DNA from: a bacterium
Lineage (GTDB): Bacteria; JAMCPX01
Assembly (NCBI GenBank): GCA_021787665.1
Contig: JAJYLN010000024.1
Coordinates: 1-34,976 of the forward strand
Reading direction: 5' to 3'
DNA: 34,976 bases
The translations under genes were made by a program, and so were the position numbers. The notes beneath the pieces were generated by a model. That model did no database searches. It was not told the DNA's origin and was given only the letters and a program-made list of their open reading frames with translations. Shown here one piece after another: positions 19,319 to 34,149 of this stretch (position 1 is the stretch's first letter; each line of letters starts with the position of its first letter).

Positions 19319-20215
19319 TTAGTTTATCTTCTTCAGCAGCGCTTCGGCCTTTGGCCGGTCCCACCACTGATAATGCGCCGGCCATGCCGGGTGCTTCTCG
19401 TCCAGGATGTCCTGGAGTTCCTTACGCGCCTGTGCCCTGTCCCCGTCTTTGAGCAGGGTATGTGCCAGGTCGATCCGTGCAAGCGTAAAGTGGGGATCGA
19501 TTTTCAGCGTCTCCTCCAGATAGCGTTTCGACGTAGCGAGGCTGCCGCCCACGAACCACGGCACCTCCCTGTAGAACAGTCCGAGACCGTCGAGGACCAA
19601 GGCGCTGTTCGGGGCGAGCTTCTGCGCCTCGAAGAGGTGGCTCTTTACGGGCTTGAGCATGATCATGGATTCCAGTATGCCCTTGAGCTGCGCTATGCGG
19701 CCGACGTTTGCGGCCCACCAGAACCAGCCATCCCACCTCCCCGGGGCGAGGTCTATGATCTGCTGTGCCGATGCCTTGCCCTGCTCGTAGGCTCGCAGCC
19801 TGTCACCGATGTGCTGACTGAATTCACCGAGGTTTGAATAGGACTCCGCGAGGATAACATACGCATCGACCTTGCCATCGATATTGTCCGGGTGCGCCTT
19901 GATATACTTCTCGCATAGCTGAACCGCCGTGTTGATATTTTCGATAGGGTCTGTCGCCATCTGGGAGATCCGGTACGCCTTCCTGAGTTCTGTGGAGACT
20001 GGCTCCCATAGCCTTTCCGGCTCGTTCTGGGTCGTCGACCAGTGGAGCTCGTCGCCCGCTGCAGGCGCTGCGTGTGCCAGGGATAAAGACCATGCCAGGA
20101 CAGCGCAGATCACTACCCATAGCGTTGGAGCTCTGTTTCTTCCCTTTTTCGATATGCCGGACATCAACGCCCCGTTTGCAGGTATACGCAAAGCGGCAAG
20201 CATACAGCCGATCAT
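19319..20215 (-). CDS. Secreted TPR protein (TatT-like), paralogue of the 25744 gene
   Basis: A 298-residue protein with a signal-like hydrophobic segment at about 30-48 (LWVVICAVLAWSLSLAHA), so it is probably exported. The rest is helical with TPR repeats: an AVQLCEKYIKAHPDN region, GRWDGWFWWAANVGRIAQLKGI, then FYREVPWFVGGSLATSKRYL and a repeat with ARKELQDIL. The pattern (WF/YW-A-N-GR..QLKG and PWxVGGS) resembles TRAP-associated TatT-like TPR proteins. The start at 20215 has AAGGAGGGG 5 bases upstream; a start at M18 would place the signal closer to the N-terminus. Its function is unknown. Confidence 0.82.
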   Translation of the reverse strand: MIGCMLAALRIPANGALMSGISKKGRNRAPTLWVVICAVLAWSLSLAHAAPAAGDELHWSTTQNEPERLWEPVSTELRKAYRISQMATDPIENINTAVQLCEKYIKAHPDNIDGKVDAYVILAESYSNLGEFSQHIGDRLRAYEQGKASAQQIIDLAPGRWDGWFWWAANVGRIAQLKGILESMIMLKPVKSHLFEAQKLAPNSALVLDGLGLFYREVPWFVGGSLATSKRYLEETLKIDPHFTLARIDLAHTLLKDGDRAQARKELQDILDEKHPAWPAHYQWWDRPKAEALLKKIN

Positions 20216-20398
20216 AGGGCCCCTCCTTTCTTTGCAGAAGTATACCCATAGTTCTCCTGTCAAGGCAAGAGGCCCCTTCCTTTGATATGCCCGGCATCGC
20301 CGAAAACGCTTTCCTTCAATGCTATCATTTCCGCTGATCACGTGTTGTATAAGAGCCTGCAAGAATCATGCGGCGGAGGCGGCTGCTACTGCGGCAAC

Positions 20399-22728: not shown

Positions 22729-24153
22729 ATGACGACCAGCTTCGATGCTGTGATCGTGGGTTCCGGGTTCGGTGGATCGATCCCGGCGCTGCGGCTTGCC
22801 CAGGCCGGCAAGAAGGTACTCGTGCTCGAGCAGGGCAGGGTCTATACGGAGACGGACTTCAAGCAGACCTGGGACCTCAAGTACCTTTCCAATATCATGA
22901 ATATCACCACGTCGGACGATTATGCCGTATTCTTCAGGTCCGGTATGGTGCTTGGCGGGGGCTCTGTCGTTTTCTCCGGGCTTATGAACAGGTCGCCTTC
23001 GGAGACCTTCCAGTTCGTCGATTACAACGGGTACAAGGTGTGGCCTGATGCCGTGAGCCGGCAGGTGCTCGACCCCTATTACGATAGGGTCGAGCAGATG
23101 ATGTCCGTGCGTCAGGCGACATGGGAAGAGGTCTCGAAGACGGGCGGCATGTTCGCCCAGCTCATGAACAATGCCGGGCTGACCTGCGACAGGGCGCGTT
23201 TCCCCTATATCAACTGCAGGGAGTGCGGCTTCTGTGAGGCAGGCTGCATCTACGGCGTAAAGCAGTCGCTCATGAAAAACTATATACCTCAGGCGCAGGA
23301 TGCCGGCGTCGAGTTCAGGACCGGATGCAGGGCGATGCAGATCATGCCGTCCGCTGCCGGGTACACGGTCCAGTATACCGGGCCCGACGATACGCTTACA
23401 TCCGTGCAAGGTACCGTTGTCATAATCGCAGCAGGCGCGATATACTCGCCGGAGCTTCTCCTGCGCTCGAAGCAGTATCTCCCAAGTCTTTCTGACCAGG
23501 TCGGCAAGAATTTCAACAACAACGGCGGCTTGCGGTTTGGCATCGAGCTGCCGGACGGGCTTCCCTCCATAGAATGCTATAAGGGAAGGGACAGTGCGGC
23601 CGTTATGACCTATGCGTACTGGCACGACTATGGTATCACCATAGAGGCAGGGACATCGCCTGCCGCGATATTCGCCATCGATATTCACAGGCCGGGCGAA
23701 TCCGGCTGGGGACTCGATTTCAAGCACTGGGCAAAGTCCGTGTACCCGTCGAAGCTGATCGTGGCAAATATCATGGGCCCCGTCACCGGCGAAGGCCTGG
23801 TGTATCTGAACAACGATATACCCGCCGTCAGTTTTCCTCTGACGAAGACCCTTGCCGATTACAGGGATAGAGTCATAGCACCCATCCAGGCGCTCACGAA
23901 GGCCAACAACGCGATCTTGCTCCAGACGATGGGCACCGGCTATATGTACTCCATAGACCACATGCTCGGCACGTGCAGGATAGGGGACGATCCGAGATAT
24001 TCACCAGCAGACCCCTATGGCCAGATACGAAATTATCCCGGTCTGTTCGTCTCGGACTCGAGCTCCCTGCCGTGCAGCACCGGCGTCAACCCGTCAACGA
24101 CGGTTGCGGCGAATGCAGAGCGGATAGCGGACTATATCGTGACAAACTGGTGA
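22729..24153 (+). CDS. GMC-family FAD oxidoreductase with CxxCxxCxxxC motif
   Basis: A 474-residue GMC flavoprotein: FAD-binding VGSGFGG (from 10), LEQGR at the end of the second strand, VLGGGSVVFSG, a VIIAAGAIYSPELLLRS block and the C-terminal HMLGTCRIG plus GVNPSTTVAANAERIADYI. The closest recognisable relatives are cholesterol-oxidase-like and long-chain-alcohol oxidase-like proteins. Cysteines 163, 166, 169 and 173 (CRECGFCEAGC) are spaced like a [4Fe-4S] ligand set. No signal peptide of its own is seen, so it could be exported as a complex with the Tat subunit that follows 6 bases later. Confidence 0.9.
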   Translation: MTTSFDAVIVGSGFGGSIPALRLAQAGKKVLVLEQGRVYTETDFKQTWDLKYLSNIMNITTSDDYAVFFRSGMVLGGGSVVFSGLMNRSPSETFQFVDYNGYKVWPDAVSRQVLDPYYDRVEQMMSVRQATWEEVSKTGGMFAQLMNNAGLTCDRARFPYINCRECGFCEAGCIYGVKQSLMKNYIPQAQDAGVEFRTGCRAMQIMPSAAGYTVQYTGPDDTLTSVQGTVVIIAAGAIYSPELLLRSKQYLPSLSDQVGKNFNNNGGLRFGIELPDGLPSIECYKGRDSAAVMTYAYWHDYGITIEAGTSPAAIFAIDIHRPGESGWGLDFKHWAKSVYPSKLIVANIMGPVTGEGLVYLNNDIPAVSFPLTKTLADYRDRVIAPIQALTKANNAILLQTMGTGYMYSIDHMLGTCRIGDDPRYSPADPYGQIRNYPGLFVSDSSSLPCSTGVNPSTTVAANAERIADYIVTNW

Positions 24154-24159
24154 TATACT

Positions 24160-24771
24160 ATGGGCATAGAAACATTTTTTAACCAGGTCGCCAGCAAGGA
24201 GTTGGACAGACGTGAGTTCTTTACGTGGGTCGTCAGGGCTTCCGTCATGGTATCCCTGTTCGGCCTGATAGACCAGATAAGTTGCGGCTTCGTGCCGGGG
24301 GCCTCGCAGCAGCCGTCCACCTGTATGCAGCCGATGACGGCCGACGAAAAAACCGTGTACGCCTTGTGCGACACGGTATTGCCGGGCATGGCCTCGGACC
24401 CGACGGGCGCGCCCGGTGCCGTCGACGTGTGCACCGTAGACCTTATGTACGACAAGTTCTATGGCATCGCCCAAGACCTGCCCCTGGTACTGCCCCTTAT
24501 CAATGCCGAAGCTCATAAAGAATACGGGAAGGACCTCTACGAACTGGACCTTGCCCAGAGGACTGCCGTTCTGAAAAACGTCGAAAAGATGCTTGGACTG
24601 GTGGGCCAAATATACATGTTCGTCAAGGGGCCGTTCTACATTGGCATTCTCAGCAGGGCCGGACTCGATTATATGGGTGACCCGGGGGCCAACCTCGGCT
24701 ATGTCAATCAAGATTTCAGCTTCTACAGGCCCATGTCGAAAGAGATGACGTCCGATGGGAACCTGCCGTGA
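24160..24771 (+). CDS. Gluconate 2-dehydrogenase subunit 3-like small subunit with Tat-like signal
   Basis: A 203-residue protein. It begins with a twin-arginine-like sequence (LDRREFFTW, R17-R18) followed by a hydrophobic stretch (about 24-42). The mature part has the MTADEKTVYALCDTVLPG block that marks the small subunit of periplasmic FAD dehydrogenases (gluconate, fructose, long-chain alcohol types). It lies between a GMC flavoprotein and a multiheme cytochrome, the three-part layout of gluconate dehydrogenase. Its likely task is to carry the flavoprotein through Tat and anchor it. The stop overlaps the first possible start of the next gene. Confidence 0.82.
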   Translation: MGIETFFNQVASKELDRREFFTWVVRASVMVSLFGLIDQISCGFVPGASQQPSTCMQPMTADEKTVYALCDTVLPGMASDPTGAPGAVDVCTVDLMYDKFYGIAQDLPLVLPLINAEAHKEYGKDLYELDLAQRTAVLKNVEKMLGLVGQIYMFVKGPFYIGILSRAGLDYMGDPGANLGYVNQDFSFYRPMSKEMTSDGNLP

Positions 24772-24782
24772 GAGGAGGGAAT

Positions 24783-25703
24783 GTGGGCAAAAGAAATGGG
24801 ATTGTTCGGTGCATCGGGGCCCTGCTCCTGGCGACCGGGGCTGGCTTTGCAGGCTGCCAGACCACCCGGACGGTGCAGTCGGGCTCGGTCAACTGCTATG
24901 ACTGCCACAACCCGGTCCAGTTGAGCATGACTGTCTCGGACGAGTCATCCGGCATCAAAGAATGGATGCAGGCCGGCGGCGCCGGGCTTGTCATGGTGCC
25001 TGCGTATAATCCACCCCCCCTTTTCCTGTATGAGTTGGCATGGCCCCGGAGGGGAAGACACAACTTCGATCTGAACACGGGTGACTGTGCTCCATGCCAC
25101 CCCGTGTACAACGGCGTGGAGAACCACAGCAACAGCGAGTATCCGGTACAGGTCCAGAAAGTTTTGTATATGGGCGGGGTTGACTGCGCGAACGGCTGTC
25201 ATCCGTGGCTCCGGGGCCCTGTCCACAGCACCGGCTTCCAATCGAATGCAGGCACGACGCCGACATACTATGGTACGCTCGACCCGTACACGCTGCTGAC
25301 CTCAGTTCAGACCGGCCATACGAGCATCTTTCTGTACGGCTTCAGGATAACGCAGGACGATGCTGATCTGGATATGCGTTATTTGAATGCCGGATGCGGG
25401 GGCTGCCATAACTGGGACGGTCCCCGGCACGGACACGTCGCCGAGTGTACCGACTGTCACGTCTTTGACCCGTCCATCACCGGTGGGCTGCACCAAAGCC
25501 ATATAGAAACCATCAGCGCCACCCAGGCGCAGGTCGACCCGGCCGATGCCGGCATGCCGGCTTGTGCGTACTGCCACGGGTTTTCTGACACCACCACCGG
25601 ACACGCCCTGTCGAATGCGTCCTGCTACAACTGCCACCTGAGCGGCCACCAGCCCATGGGCGCCGACCATATGCCGCAATTCTGGGACCCGAATGCTCCA
25701 TAG
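24783..25703 (+). CDS. Multiheme c-type cytochrome lipoprotein (six CXXCH, one CX3CH)
   Basis: A 306-residue protein with a signal sequence ending at a cysteine (GFAGC, C25) that suggests lipid anchoring. Canonical haem sites begin at C38, C102, C205, C222, C261 and C281 (CYDCH, CAPCH, CGGCH, CTDCH, CAYCH, CYNCH). A seventh, CANGCH at 135, has three residues between the cysteines. Several extra histidines could be axial ligands. It resembles octahaem/hexahaem electron-transfer proteins only in haem spacing; I do not recognise a named family. The GTG start at 24783 has AGGAGG 6 bases upstream; a GTG at 24768 overlaps the previous stop but lacks a site. I infer it takes electrons from the GMC dehydrogenase. 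Confidence 0.9.
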   Translation: MGKRNGIVRCIGALLLATGAGFAGCQTTRTVQSGSVNCYDCHNPVQLSMTVSDESSGIKEWMQAGGAGLVMVPAYNPPPLFLYELAWPRRGRHNFDLNTGDCAPCHPVYNGVENHSNSEYPVQVQKVLYMGGVDCANGCHPWLRGPVHSTGFQSNAGTTPTYYGTLDPYTLLTSVQTGHTSIFLYGFRITQDDADLDMRYLNAGCGGCHNWDGPRHGHVAECTDCHVFDPSITGGLHQSHIETISATQAQVDPADAGMPACAYCHGFSDTTTGHALSNASCYNCHLSGHQPMGADHMPQFWDPNAP

Positions 25704-25743
25704 AGCCCGCTGGTACCTGATCGGGCAAAAAGGAAGGGCCGTA

Positions 25744-26508
25744 ATGCGAAGGGACACGCTGATGAGGTTCTTGTTCGTCGCAGCGACGATCATCTCGATC
25801 TCGTTACCCCGCGATCTTTACGCCGTAACGCTCGGCGAGGCTGAGGGGACATTCAATAATTATGATAAAGACATCTCTAACCTCCGCAGGTCCATTTACA
25901 TGTTCGATCGGATCATCCGAGAGAGCAGGTCCCCGAAGGTCCTGTACAAGGCGTACTGGATGGAATCCAGGGCGTTTGCAGCGATGGGAGACCACCCGGC
26001 CCTTACCGGGACGGACGCAGTAAAGGACTACGAGACCGGGAAGGAGGCAGGCGCCGAGGCAATAAGGATCGACCGGAACGGTGAGAAGGGATATTTTTGG
26101 TACGCGGTGAACCTCGGCAAGCTCGGTCAGCTCAGGGGCGTGCTGCATGCCCTGTTCATGTTGCCGGAATTCGAGAAGGACATGGGCAGGGCGTACAGAA
26201 TCGATCCGAACGATCCCTGGGTCCTGGTGGCGTACGGCGCGCTGTACTATGAGCTGCCGTGGGTGGTAGGGGGCAGTGATGCGAGGGCGCTCGGCTATCT
26301 CAGAAAAGCGCTGGAACAGGAACCGGATTTCACCGTGTCCATGGTACTGATGGGCAAGGTCTACATACAGGAGGGGGAGTACGCCAAGGCAAAGGCCATT
26401 CTGGAAAAGGTCGTGCAGTATAAGACGCCGGCTTCGAGGGCAGACTGGGTAATGTCCGACAGTCCGACCGCACAGGTTCTCCTGAAATCGATAGATAAAA
26501 AACGGTAG
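25744..26508 (+). CDS. Secreted TPR protein (TatT-like), paralogue of the 19319 gene
   Basis: A 254-residue protein with a signal peptide (about 1-27, ending near LYA). Its helical repeats follow the same plan as the gene at 19319: GYFWYAVNLGKLGQLRGV matches GWFWWAANVGRIAQLKGI, and YYELPWVVGGSDARALGYL matches FYREVPWFVGGSLATSKRYL. Last gene of the epimerase-to-cytochrome operon, 40 bases after the cytochrome. The start at 25744 has AAGGAAGG upstream. TPR proteins of this kind may assemble or tether periplasmic partners (inference). Confidence 0.82.
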   Translation: MRRDTLMRFLFVAATIISISLPRDLYAVTLGEAEGTFNNYDKDISNLRRSIYMFDRIIRESRSPKVLYKAYWMESRAFAAMGDHPALTGTDAVKDYETGKEAGAEAIRIDRNGEKGYFWYAVNLGKLGQLRGVLHALFMLPEFEKDMGRAYRIDPNDPWVLVAYGALYYELPWVVGGSDARALGYLRKALEQEPDFTVSMVLMGKVYIQEGEYAKAKAILEKVVQYKTPASRADWVMSDSPTAQVLLKSIDKKR

Positions 26509-30286: not shown

Positions 30287-31966
30287 TTACCATACAGGCA
30301 TCGTCGGATTGGTGCCGGTAAGGTAGCTATAGATCCCGTACGCAGCGCCCGCAATAATCTTATTGAGGTTGTACGTGGTCGCCGGCACAAAGCTCTCTGT
30401 CCCAGATGCCGGGCACGATGTTGCAAGGGTACCGTCCGCGGCACCCTGCGGCTCACAGAACTCGAGCATCTGACTCAGATCGACCGAGAGCGCGCCATTG
30501 AACGATGGATCGCCGAATGAGACGTACGGGATCATCGCAGGAATAGTCACAGCGCATCCCGGACAGGTGAAGGAGTACTGCGGAGCTGTAATGCCGTCGC
30601 GCACGATGGCAGTAGTCCCGTCGGTGAAATGGCCGGTGTCGCCGGATCCATAATACCAGGGTAGGCCCGCTGCATTGGCCGGGGCGACCTCCGCCTCTAC
30701 CTGGAACTCGTCTGCAGGGTTCAGCGTCGGGTAGTAGTTCCTCAACGGCTGCGGATTGCTGAACAGCTTGTAGGGATCAGCAGCGATCACGTTGGTCTTG
30801 ATCGCCAGTGAGGGTATCACGGCATCGATGAGCACGTTGAGATCCTTCGGCTTCAACTGCGCCGGATCCTCGGAAGCGAGGTTGCCCCATACCATTCCCA
30901 TAAGCGACTGTACGGCCGGCACGATCTTGTTGCTGACGAAGAAGGGGACTGTGACCGTCCCGTCCGGCGAGACAAACATGCTCGTCCTCTGAGGGTCATG
31001 GGACGTCCATTGCGATACGCAGTTTTTGCCGGAAGCCTCGTCGGTGCAGCCGAACTTGAAAGTGTCCAGACCATCGACGATGCCGTCATCGTTCGCATCG
31101 GTATACGCCAGCACCTTTCGCGGATTCCCACTGTCCTTCACGAGCGCCTCAGGCAGGCCCTGTGCTTCTTGTATGGCGGCCGCCATATCGCTGCCTACCC
31201 TTGAGAAATAGTACGCGCCCGGCTTCGGCGCACGGTCCGTGAATGCGAGAAGGTCCTGACACTGGGCAAGCAGGCCGCCCGCGAACCGTACGGCACCGAG
31301 GGGGTCCTGTTTGAAGTTTGTGATTGCAGGGTTGTTGTAATTCGCGCTCACCCAGCGAATGACGCATGCTGCGTCATAGCTGTGAGCCGAAAGAGCGTCG
31401 ATAGTGGCCATCATGCTGTTGGACATGCTGCCGAGAACTCTCGCTTCTGCCGGCCCCCACTGGGTGCCGAGTGAGACCTTCATATCGATGCTGTTCTGGG
31501 TGCTACTGGCTGCGATTGACAGGTCCGGATGAAATTCGAGCGATAGCGTGGAGAGTGTGAACTCGCAGCTATTCGCTTCCACGACAGGCGTCCTCGATGC
31601 TATGTCGGTCAGGTCAGCAGTCAGTCCACTGAAGCTGTCCGCTATATCGTCGTCCAGCAGTCCGGATATCAGGTTGGTCACGACGGCCGTACCCTGATGG
31701 TCCACGACGTCCTGCATGTCTGCGAGGATGAGACACCACTGTGCGTTGCAGTTGTTCTTATCGAGGCTCAGTGCGGCCTGACATGAGCTTCTCGCTGTTG
31801 AAGGGTCGCTGTTGAGCAATGCATTGCTGCCCTGCTGTAAAAGGCCGAGCACCTTGGAATTCTGAGCTGAAGCGCCGTTGCCCGTATTACTCTGGCCGCA
31901 GCCGCCGATGACGATAGCGGAACCCATGAGTAACCCCGAGAAAAGAAAAAGTATCTTCTTATCCAT
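30287..31966 (-). CDS. Large unknown lipoprotein with a calcium-loop motif
   Basis: A 559-residue protein with a lipoprotein signal (lipobox IGGC, C23). The first part (about 38-85) looks like a TPR-type helical pair with cysteines. Residues 290-301 (DANDDGIVDGLD) form a DxNDDG loop like those of EF-hand, dockerin or thrombospondin type 3 calcium sites. Around it are several cysteines (FGCTDEASGKNC). The C-terminal part has CPGCAVTIP. I do not recognise a family and give no function. The start at 31966 has GGGAGG 8 bases upstream; an ATG two codons earlier is too close to that site. Confidence 0.85.
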   Translation of the reverse strand: MDKKILFLFSGLLMGSAIVIGGCGQSNTGNGASAQNSKVLGLLQQGSNALLNSDPSTARSSCQAALSLDKNNCNAQWCLILADMQDVVDHQGTAVVTNLISGLLDDDIADSFSGLTADLTDIASRTPVVEANSCEFTLSTLSLEFHPDLSIAASSTQNSIDMKVSLGTQWGPAEARVLGSMSNSMMATIDALSAHSYDAACVIRWVSANYNNPAITNFKQDPLGAVRFAGGLLAQCQDLLAFTDRAPKPGAYYFSRVGSDMAAAIQEAQGLPEALVKDSGNPRKVLAYTDANDDGIVDGLDTFKFGCTDEASGKNCVSQWTSHDPQRTSMFVSPDGTVTVPFFVSNKIVPAVQSLMGMVWGNLASEDPAQLKPKDLNVLIDAVIPSLAIKTNVIAADPYKLFSNPQPLRNYYPTLNPADEFQVEAEVAPANAAGLPWYYGSGDTGHFTDGTTAIVRDGITAPQYSFTCPGCAVTIPAMIPYVSFGDPSFNGALSVDLSQMLEFCEPQGAADGTLATSCPASGTESFVPATTYNLNKIIAGAAYGIYSYLTGTNPTMPVW

Positions 31967-32048
31967 ACCCATATCCTCCCTGCACTCACGCATAGCACAG
32001 GAAAGGTAAAAGTCAAGAAAATCGAGCAAAACGTGAAGGAGGGAAACC

Positions 32049-32198
32049 ATGCCTCTTTTTCCCGGAATGATTATGAATATACTCAATAAAGTATGGCTGT
32101 TGTTTACGAAGCGAAGCCAACAACAGACGAACTCATGGAGCTTTTTCCTTGTCGAGGGCTTCGATGAAAAGGCACCGGGAATCTTGTTCACCTGTTGA
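32049..32198 (+). CDS. Possible 49-residue protein before the second GMC module
   Basis: AAGGAGGG, 5 bases, then ATG at 32049 opens a frame of 49 codons ending in TGA at 32196. The product starts with a short hydrophobic segment (FPGMIMNILNKVWLLFT) and continues polar. It is 74 bases before the small GMC subunit start on the same strand. It is not recognised; the strong ribosome site is the main support. Confidence 0.35.
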   Translation: MPLFPGMIMNILNKVWLLFTKRSQQQTNSWSFFLVEGFDEKAPGILFTC

Positions 32199-32272: not shown

Positions 32273-32659
32273 ATGTCATACAGAGAGGTCTTCAGGGCCG
32301 TTGCCGTTACCGTTGTACCGCGTGACAACGGATTTCCCACGGGCGCGGCTGATATCGACATGATGGCGGTCTTGCAGGACACGGTGCACGCGTTCGGCAA
32401 AAGGATCATACTCCTGCGCATCTTTTTCCACTTCATCGATGTCCTTCCCGTCGTTACCCTTTTCAGGCCGAGGCGGTTCAGGAACCTCTGCACGGAGGAC
32501 AGAGATGCCTTCCTGCGGAGGCTTGGCGAGAGCAGGTGGGGCATAAACAGGATGATCTTTCTTCTGATCAAGGCCATTATGGTGATGGTTTTCTACAGCT
32601 CTCCGGAGGCGGAGAGACAGATCGGATTGAAGAGCGGGTGTGCAGCGGGGGACCGGTGA
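32273..32659 (+). CDS. Small subunit-like protein of a GMC dehydrogenase (subunit 3 / long-chain alcohol oxidase N-terminal type)
   Basis: A 128-residue helical protein: REVFRAVAVTVVPRDNGFPTGAADIDM corresponds to the gluconate-dehydrogenase subunit 3 opening block, and the end (FLLIKAIMVMVFYSSPEAERQIGL) resembles the segment preceding the flavin domain in long-chain fatty alcohol oxidases, where both parts are one chain. No signal peptide is visible. The ATG at 32273 has GGGAGG 8 bases upstream; a longer start at 32225 has a poorer site. Its stop TGA overlaps the GTG start of the flavoprotein (GTGA), so the two are coupled. Confidence 0.72.
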   Translation: MSYREVFRAVAVTVVPRDNGFPTGAADIDMMAVLQDTVHAFGKRIILLRIFFHFIDVLPVVTLFRPRRFRNLCTEDRDAFLRRLGESRWGINRMIFLLIKAIMVMVFYSSPEAERQIGLKSGCAAGDR

Positions 32660-34149
32660 AGGAGATCAGGGAAAAGGCGGATGTCTGCGTTATTGGCTCC
32701 GGCGCCGGCGGGGCCGTGTGCGCTAAAGAGCTCCAGGAGGCCGGTCTATCCGTCGTCGTTATGGAGCAGGGCGGCGACTTCTCCAGGATCGATCCTGAAG
32801 AAGATCTTATTCAGGGCAGCATCAGGGTCCTGGCAAAGACCAGGGCATTCCGGGGCAATGTCGGCATGGGCAATCCCATGGTCCCCATTGCGTGGGGGAG
32901 CTCCGTGGGCGGGTCCACGGTGCTCAATACCGGGACATCGTGGCGGGTGCCGCAAAAGGTCCTCCGGGCATGGAGAGACGACCATGGACTCGAGGTGTTT
33001 ACCGACGATCATATCTCCAGGCTCTCTGAAAGGGTCGAAAAGTTCACCAGCATAGGACCCGTGTCGGACGACATCATGGGTATGAGCGGTAAGCTCATGC
33101 GGAAAGGGGTTGCCGCGCTCGGCTGGAGTGGCGGTCCGGTCAGGAGGAATGCCAGTGGGTGCAGGGGATGCGGGTCGTGTGTCGTGGGCTGTCCGTACGA
33201 CGCGAAGAAGGCCATGCACCTGAGCTACATCCCCCGGGCGATCGAGCTCGGCGCGAGGCTGCACAAGAAGACTCGCGCCGAAAAGGTGCTCATGCGGCGC
33301 CAGCGGGTAACCGGCGTGGAAGGCATACAGGTTGGCGAGGACGGCAGGAAGTGGAAGGTCACGGTAGAGGCGCGCGTCGTTATCGTCGCCGGCGGAGCCG
33401 TACCGAGCGCCGTGCTCCTGTTGAGGAACGGTATAGCCAACTCCAGCGGCCAGGTCGGGATGAACCTGAGGCTGCACCCGGGAGCGGTGGTTGGCGCGCT
33501 CTTCGACGAAGACGTCGAGTGCTGGAAGGGCGTCACGCAGAGCTACTACTGCGACGAGTTCCTCAGGGAAGGCATCATCATACTGGTCGGTGCGCTGCCT
33601 CCGCCGATCGGGGCGCTCATCGTGCCGGGCACGGGCGCAGCTCACAAGGGCTTCATGGCACGGTACCGGGGCTTTACGGATGCCGGTGCCCTGATCAGCG
33701 ATACGTCGAGTGGACGGGTCAGGGCAGTGGGGCACAACGCCCTGATAACCTATTCGCTTGCCGACACCGATGTCCAAAGGCTGAAGAAGGGGTTTTCCGC
33801 GCTCGTAAAGATCTATTTTGCTGCGGGCGCCCGGTACGTGTTCCCTCTCGTCCAGGGAGGCGCCGCGCTCGAGTCGATACGGCAGGCAGAGGAGTTCATC
33901 GAAAAACATATTGCACGCAACTCCCTGCTTACGGCCAGCCTGCACCCTATGGGTACGGCGCGGATGGGCCGGAACCCGGCGAGCTCGGTCGTGGACATGT
34001 TCCTGGAGTCGCACGATGTGAAGGGGCTTTTCGTGTGCGACGCGAGCGTGTTTCCTACTTCCATTGCGGTGAACCCGCAGGAATCCATCATGACTCTCGC
34101 GACACACGCGTCAGAGCATATCGCGGCCCACATGGAGGACTACTCCTGA
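32656..34149 (+). CDS. Second GMC-family FAD oxidoreductase, long-chain alcohol oxidase-like
   Basis: A 497-residue flavoprotein with GSGAGG (14-19), MEQGGDF, the GSSVGGSTVLNTGTSWRVP block, VIVAGGAVPSAVLLLRNG and a C-terminal HPMGTARMG plus AVNPQESIMTLATHASEHIA. These fit the fatty-alcohol oxidase branch of GMC. Cysteines 169, 172, 175 and 179 followed by proline (GCRGCGSCVVGCP) repeat the ferredoxin-like spacing found in the first GMC protein. The GTG start at 32656 overlaps the upstream stop. The frame is open 40 codons further up but only inside the small-subunit gene. Substrate not known. Confidence 0.9.
   Translation: MKEIREKADVCVIGSGAGGAVCAKELQEAGLSVVVMEQGGDFSRIDPEEDLIQGSIRVLAKTRAFRGNVGMGNPMVPIAWGSSVGGSTVLNTGTSWRVPQKVLRAWRDDHGLEVFTDDHISRLSERVEKFTSIGPVSDDIMGMSGKLMRKGVAALGWSGGPVRRNASGCRGCGSCVVGCPYDAKKAMHLSYIPRAIELGARLHKKTRAEKVLMRRQRVTGVEGIQVGEDGRKWKVTVEARVVIVAGGAVPSAVLLLRNGIANSSGQVGMNLRLHPGAVVGALFDEDVECWKGVTQSYYCDEFLREGIIILVGALPPPIGALIVPGTGAAHKGFMARYRGFTDAGALISDTSSGRVRAVGHNALITYSLADTDVQRLKKGFSALVKIYFAAGARYVFPLVQGGAALESIRQAEEFIEKHIARNSLLTASLHPMGTARMGRNPASSVVDMFLESHDVKGLFVCDASVFPTSIAVNPQESIMTLATHASEHIAAHMEDYS

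Follow-up and report, generated by a model that had tools for sequence, protein, structure and literature searches.

A conserved three-gene unit of a GMC flavoprotein, a Tat-type small subunit and a multihaem lipoprotein as a putative variant of heterotrimeric FAD dehydrogenases

The window analysed here, the whole stretch of 34,976 nucleotides, is contig 11 of a 2.25-Mb genome that is 93% complete. Three genes follow one another on its forward strand: (i) a GMC flavoprotein of 474 aa, the putative catalytic subunit (22729–24153), (ii) a Tat small subunit of 203 aa from the gluconate 2-dehydrogenase subunit 3 family (24160–24771) and (iii) a c-type cytochrome lipoprotein with seven haem motifs, the putative electron-transfer subunit (24783–25703). 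The gap between the first two genes is 6 bp. With GTG 24783, preceded by AGGAGG, taken as the start of the cytochrome, the second and the third are 11 bp apart; the longest cytochrome ORF, from GTG 24768, overlaps the stop codon of the Tat gene. All three components named in an earlier note on this DNA, a GMC oxidoreductase, a Tat small subunit and a multihaem lipoprotein, are present.

The cytochrome carries six CXXCH motifs, CYDCH (site 1, 24894–24908), CAPCH (site 2, 25086–25100), CGGCH (site 4, 25395–25409), CTDCH (site 5, 25446–25460), CAYCH (site 6, 25563–25577) and CYNCH (site 7, 25623–25637), all on the forward strand. We shuffled the protein 20,000 times and obtained a mean of 0.05 CXXCH and a maximum of 2, compared with the six real sites, and every other ORF in the window has at most one. 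Between the second and the third CXXCH lies a conserved CX3CH motif, CANGCH (site 3, C140-C144-H145, 25185–25202, forward strand), whose C140, C144 and H145 are invariant in all 12 aligned cytochromes. In the Myxococcales orthologue L031 the same place is occupied by an ordinary CAGCH, which argues that the CX3CH site also holds a haem. The six CXXCH counted in the earlier note are thus real, but the haem sites number seven, the CX3CH having been missed. Of the twelve orthologues compared, only G004 lacks an intact set of seven, its site 1 being degenerate. Beyond the haem motifs, a further six histidines never vary (98, 120, 184, 221, 245 and 294, numbered on the 311-residue protein); they would suffice for bis-His ligation of the six haems common to all twelve. 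The protein has a lipobox, GFAGC. It scores 26.4 bits against Cytochrome_C7 (cut-off 24.8) and also matches c3-type Pfam families, and among Pfam families it matches no class I cytochrome c. By family match the cytochrome is of class III/c7 type, unlike the usual triheme subunit, a difference that had been proposed before and that these matches bear out. An AlphaFold model, made with eight orthologues, reached a pLDDT of 37.

The flavoprotein matches PF00732 with 82 bits and PF05199 with 44 bits, has no signal peptide of its own, and has orthologues in all genomes with the trio (46–84% identical). Its putative catalytic pair is formed by His411 (23959–23961, forward strand) and Asn454 (24088–24090, forward strand), which line up with the cholesterol oxidase motifs HPLGG and GVNP, respectively, and are both invariant in 12 sequences. 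It further contains the sequence Cys163-x2-Cys166-x2-Cys169-x3-Cys173 (23215–23247, forward strand), and all four cysteines of this CX2CX2CX3C motif are invariant in the 12 trio members compared. We built a profile of the cysteine region from five GMC proteins, which matches fructose dehydrogenase (FDH, E = 1e-7) and the Burkholderia glucose dehydrogenase (BcGDH, 3e-6). In this alignment, C163, C169 and C173 fall on C216, C222 and C226 of FDH, and C166 stands opposite an Asn. The cysteine region of a paralogue within the window, GMC2, likewise aligns on BcGDH 212–222. The multihaem subunit of BcGDH receives its electrons from a [3Fe-4S] cluster at the protein surface, which is bound by Cys212, Cys218 and Cys222 and lies 12–13 Å from the FAD (PMC6719666). 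Judged by the profile alignment, the site is homologous to structurally known Fe–S sites: the C-x5-C-x3-C pattern of heterotrimeric FAD dehydrogenases is there, together with the additional invariant C166. This spacing and the fourth cysteine lead us to predict a [4Fe-4S] cluster. The alignment of cholesterol oxidases, which have no cysteine cluster, begins only after this region. The identification of a GMC flavoprotein in the earlier note was correct, and the four-cysteine Fe–S motif had gone unnoticed.

The small subunit scores 26.3 bits against PF13618 (cut-off 23.4), a family matched by all 12 of the homologues scanned. Its twin-arginine stretch, DRREFF at residues 16–21 with RRxF at 17–20, contains R17 and R18, which are invariant among the homologues. 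Cys42 (24283–24285, forward strand) follows the Tat hydrophobic stretch and is a possible Tat-lipoprotein cysteine; it is invariant in the 12 cytochrome-partnered subunits and is missing from Bdellovibrionales homologues that have no cytochrome. An anchor of the Tat-lipoprotein type is only possible, since the subunits of G753 and G004 have a good lipobox at the position of Cys42 but no PROSITE lipobox is found in the protein of the window. A fold search with the model of the small subunit (pLDDT 69.5) against solved chains returned no significant match, nothing rising above noise, and the alignments of the Tat subunit and the cytochrome, used as profiles against solved structures, gave nothing useful.

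Orthologues of the cytochrome were found in 14 genomes: in eight of the nine compared from the phylum of the window, all of one family; in G022, a vent MAG and the sole genome compared from its phylum; in two of the 195 genomes from the phylum to which the Myxococcales MAG G043 belongs; in G042; and in two genomes of a further family. Weak matches elsewhere (E about 1e-3 to 1e-5) reflect generic multihaem similarity and were left uncounted. GMC flavoprotein, Tat subunit and cytochrome lie on one strand and in the same order in all 13 genomes whose contig includes the upstream flank; the fourteenth genome, G001, stands outside this count because its contig ends inside the cytochrome. Nowhere among roughly 1,000 genomes scanned did we find the cytochrome away from the GMC–Tat pair, and no relatives of the Tat subunit or the cytochrome were found in plasmid and viral collections. 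The matrices of pairwise distances for the three proteins are correlated with one another (r = 0.96–0.97). Restricted to the eight most distant members, the correlation is 0.83–0.89, a value reached in 5 to 33 of 5,000 permutations. These correlations fit co-inheritance of the trio, and part of them may simply reflect how the genomes are related. Judged from gene content and order, the trio is genuine and constitutes one conserved unit. The three-part unit proposed earlier holds across distantly related bacteria, and the independent placement of the genes that was named as a refutation was looked for and was not seen for the cytochrome-bearing unit. An apparent GMC–Tat fusion in the Myxococcales locus L031, an ORF of 839 aa, was rejected: most of this ORF is read in a different frame from the GMC gene, which itself stops at a TGA ahead of the Tat gene.

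Outside the three genes the surroundings vary. The epimerase and acyltransferase genes upstream were ruled out as parts of the unit, since the upstream genes differ among relatives and neither of the two stands beside the trio there; as a clue to a lipid or sterol-like substrate, for which they had been taken, they no longer serve. Downstream, a TPR protein (25693–26508, forward strand) also lies beside the cytochrome in G001, G007 and G008, where its orthologues are 58–71% identical, and was not found at the other trio loci; it would be an accessory component at most. A related TPR protein is encoded at 19319–20362 on the reverse strand, so that the two flank the run from the epimerase to the cytochrome on opposite strands. 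A large protein encoded at 30287–32191 (reverse strand) contains, within the N-terminal part, a stretch resembling a lipobox, and its orthologue near the trio in G001 is 84% identical over 335 residues.

GMC–Tat pairs also occur without the trio-type cytochrome, a group that the earlier reading of the trio had overlooked while its central point, the unit, stands. Such pairs are found in the genus of the window (L028 and L029) and in Bdellovibrionales (L033 and L035), so the GMC–Tat pair does not strictly depend on the cytochrome. L028 and L029 belong to isolate FK_Sedi_A_Bin.102, whose cytochrome match shares contig, coordinates and score with that of G001 from the same genus. Their GMC paralogues are 66–68% identical to the GMC of the window, compared with 53% for the trio GMC of G004, and this closer relation makes it likely that the cytochrome was lost after duplication. 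In G000, a GMC paralogue on contig C26 (L085, 68% identical to the GMC of the window) has no Tat gene beside it and shares its surroundings with the GMC–Tat pair of L028, and an orphan Tat small subunit on contig C13 (L013, 9702–10325; 56% identical) has no GMC beside it; its neighbours are thrS and the beginning of a patatin-like gene. Taken together, the pairs without cytochrome and the split paralogues of G000 suggest that the GMC–Tat core is modular and able to combine with other partners.

Further paralogues were noted in the same genome. GMC2 (32536–34149 of the window, forward strand) has CX2CX2CX3C as in the GMC of the trio and weak Fer4 profile matches, with neither a Tat subunit nor a cytochrome alongside. 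Two more Fe–S GMC paralogues lie at L086 (2345–4346) and L087 (3998–5881); one of them is preceded by a small-subunit-like protein of 148 aa that has no Tat signal, and the other has an N-terminal extension that, by eye, resembles a fused small subunit. Judged by eye only, these two are possibly cytoplasmic versions of the pair.

The solved structures closest to the GMC flavoprotein are cholesterol oxidases (1coy, matched by the family profile at E = 3e-24). The score against the cholesterol oxidase equivalog NF058674 is 110 bits, far below the cut-off of 850. The hydrophobic alcohol suggested before as the substrate keeps its structural neighbour but does not reach this assignment, and it is only a lead.

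We consider it probable that the three genes encode an exported heterotrimeric FAD dehydrogenase in which electrons pass from an alcohol-type substrate to FAD, to an Fe–S cluster and to the seven-haem lipoprotein. The GMC subunit would fold in the cytoplasm with its FAD and Fe–S cluster and would leave by the Tat route, carried along by the small subunit, as suggested by the family of the latter. Passenger export is the natural reading of a GMC protein that has no signal, with BcGDH as the precedent (PMC6719666). The resulting physical complex would sit in the periplasm or be anchored to the envelope. Outside the cytoplasm, the His/Asn pair and FAD would oxidise the alcohol-type substrate, and electrons would move from FAD to the surface cluster, predicted to be [4Fe-4S] in contrast to the [3Fe-4S] of glucose and fructose dehydrogenases, and from there to the separately exported seven-haem lipoprotein in place of the usual triheme cytochrome. 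A more specific version, a family of alcohol dehydrogenases in which the [4Fe-4S] GMC connects directly with a heptahaem lipoprotein of class III type in the outer membrane and carries electrons from an extracytoplasmic organic substrate into a multihaem chain, bypassing quinone, is tentative and in our view rather doubtful.

Three other readings were weighed against the exported dehydrogenase. The GMC and Tat proteins may make up an exported enzyme complete in itself, such as an O2-using oxidase of the cholesterol oxidase type, with the cytochrome as a mere neighbour. That GMC–Tat pairs exist without cytochrome, and that oxygen-using cholesterol oxidases are the nearest solved structures, speaks for such an enzyme; we nevertheless regard it as quite unlikely, given that the cytochrome is never separated from the pair, that its divergence tracks that of the GMC protein and that the cholesterol oxidases lack the cysteine cluster. 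Operation in reverse, with the cytochrome supplying electrons and the GMC protein reducing a ketone or similar compound, appears very improbable: Fe–S and multihaem relays can run in either direction in principle, but the known GMC–Tat–cytochrome enzymes act as dehydrogenases, and the trio retains the His/Asn pair of the oxidative reaction.

The remaining reading concerns the acceptor, and would have the trio feed a conduit for extracellular electron transfer directly, with the lipoprotein on the cell surface. A lipoprotein with class III-type multihaem character would suit this arrangement, but no MtrB/PioB outer-membrane porin was found in the nine genomes of the phylum, and no further multihaem gene lies next to the trio. 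An extracellular acceptor is not supported in the absence of an MtrB-type porin, the co-occurrence with porin–cytochrome genes proposed as a check did not materialise in these nine genomes, and we judge the conduit unlikely. In the same phylum, COX1 (haem-copper oxidase) is matched in eight of nine genomes, with no match in G000, and NrfD-type membrane subunits are present in all nine.

Several known systems share parts of this architecture. Gluconate 2-dehydrogenase, also of three subunits, has a small subunit of the PF13618 family, a GMC flavoprotein and a cytochrome. That cytochrome is of the triheme class I type, unlike the cytochrome of the trio with its matches to Cytochrome_C7/c3 families, and we do not extend the likeness to gluconate as a substrate. 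Class I cholesterol oxidases from Streptomyces and Brevibacterium, the closest solved relatives of the GMC protein by sequence, are single-protein oxidases that use oxygen and, unlike the trio, have no cysteine cluster, small subunit or cytochrome. The combination of one atypical CX3CH with six CX2CH is not new, since it is present in ImcH, an inner-membrane cytochrome of Geobacter (PMC6295460). ImcH differs in having three transmembrane helices and partial similarity to NapC/NirT, in contrast to a lipoprotein paired with a flavoenzyme. A literature search, made without most subscription journals, found no GMC enzyme with a multihaem partner like that of the trio.

The closest working parallel is with BcGDH and the fructose dehydrogenase of Gluconobacter, which combine, as predicted for the trio, a GMC catalytic subunit, a small subunit as Tat hitchhiker, an Fe–S cluster at the homologous cysteine site and a separate c-type cytochrome subunit. 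These enzymes have three haems and a [3Fe-4S] cluster on three Cys, in contrast to seven haem motifs and a four-Cys site in the trio, and their small subunit belongs to a different Pfam family (FAD-SLDH). The trio has what defines heterotrimeric FAD dehydrogenases in its GMC protein with the His/Asn pair, its Fe–S cysteines and, by sequence family, its Tat small subunit, and departs from them in the cytochrome, which has seven haem motifs and is not triheme. As far as homology can tell, it is a variant of these dehydrogenases that shares their working principle and, at the key site, the ancestry of their catalytic subunit. If this is true, such a natural version with a seven-haem outlet and a probable [4Fe-4S] relay would show the GMC–Tat core to be a module able to accept unrelated cytochromes, and the trio would offer an electron source, open to testing, for uncultured bacteria of which little is known. 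Three-subunit FAD dehydrogenases have been studied for mediator-free glucose sensing, in which the cytochrome carries electrons to the electrode, and the trio is most likely a version of this biosensor-type enzyme with a different electron outlet.
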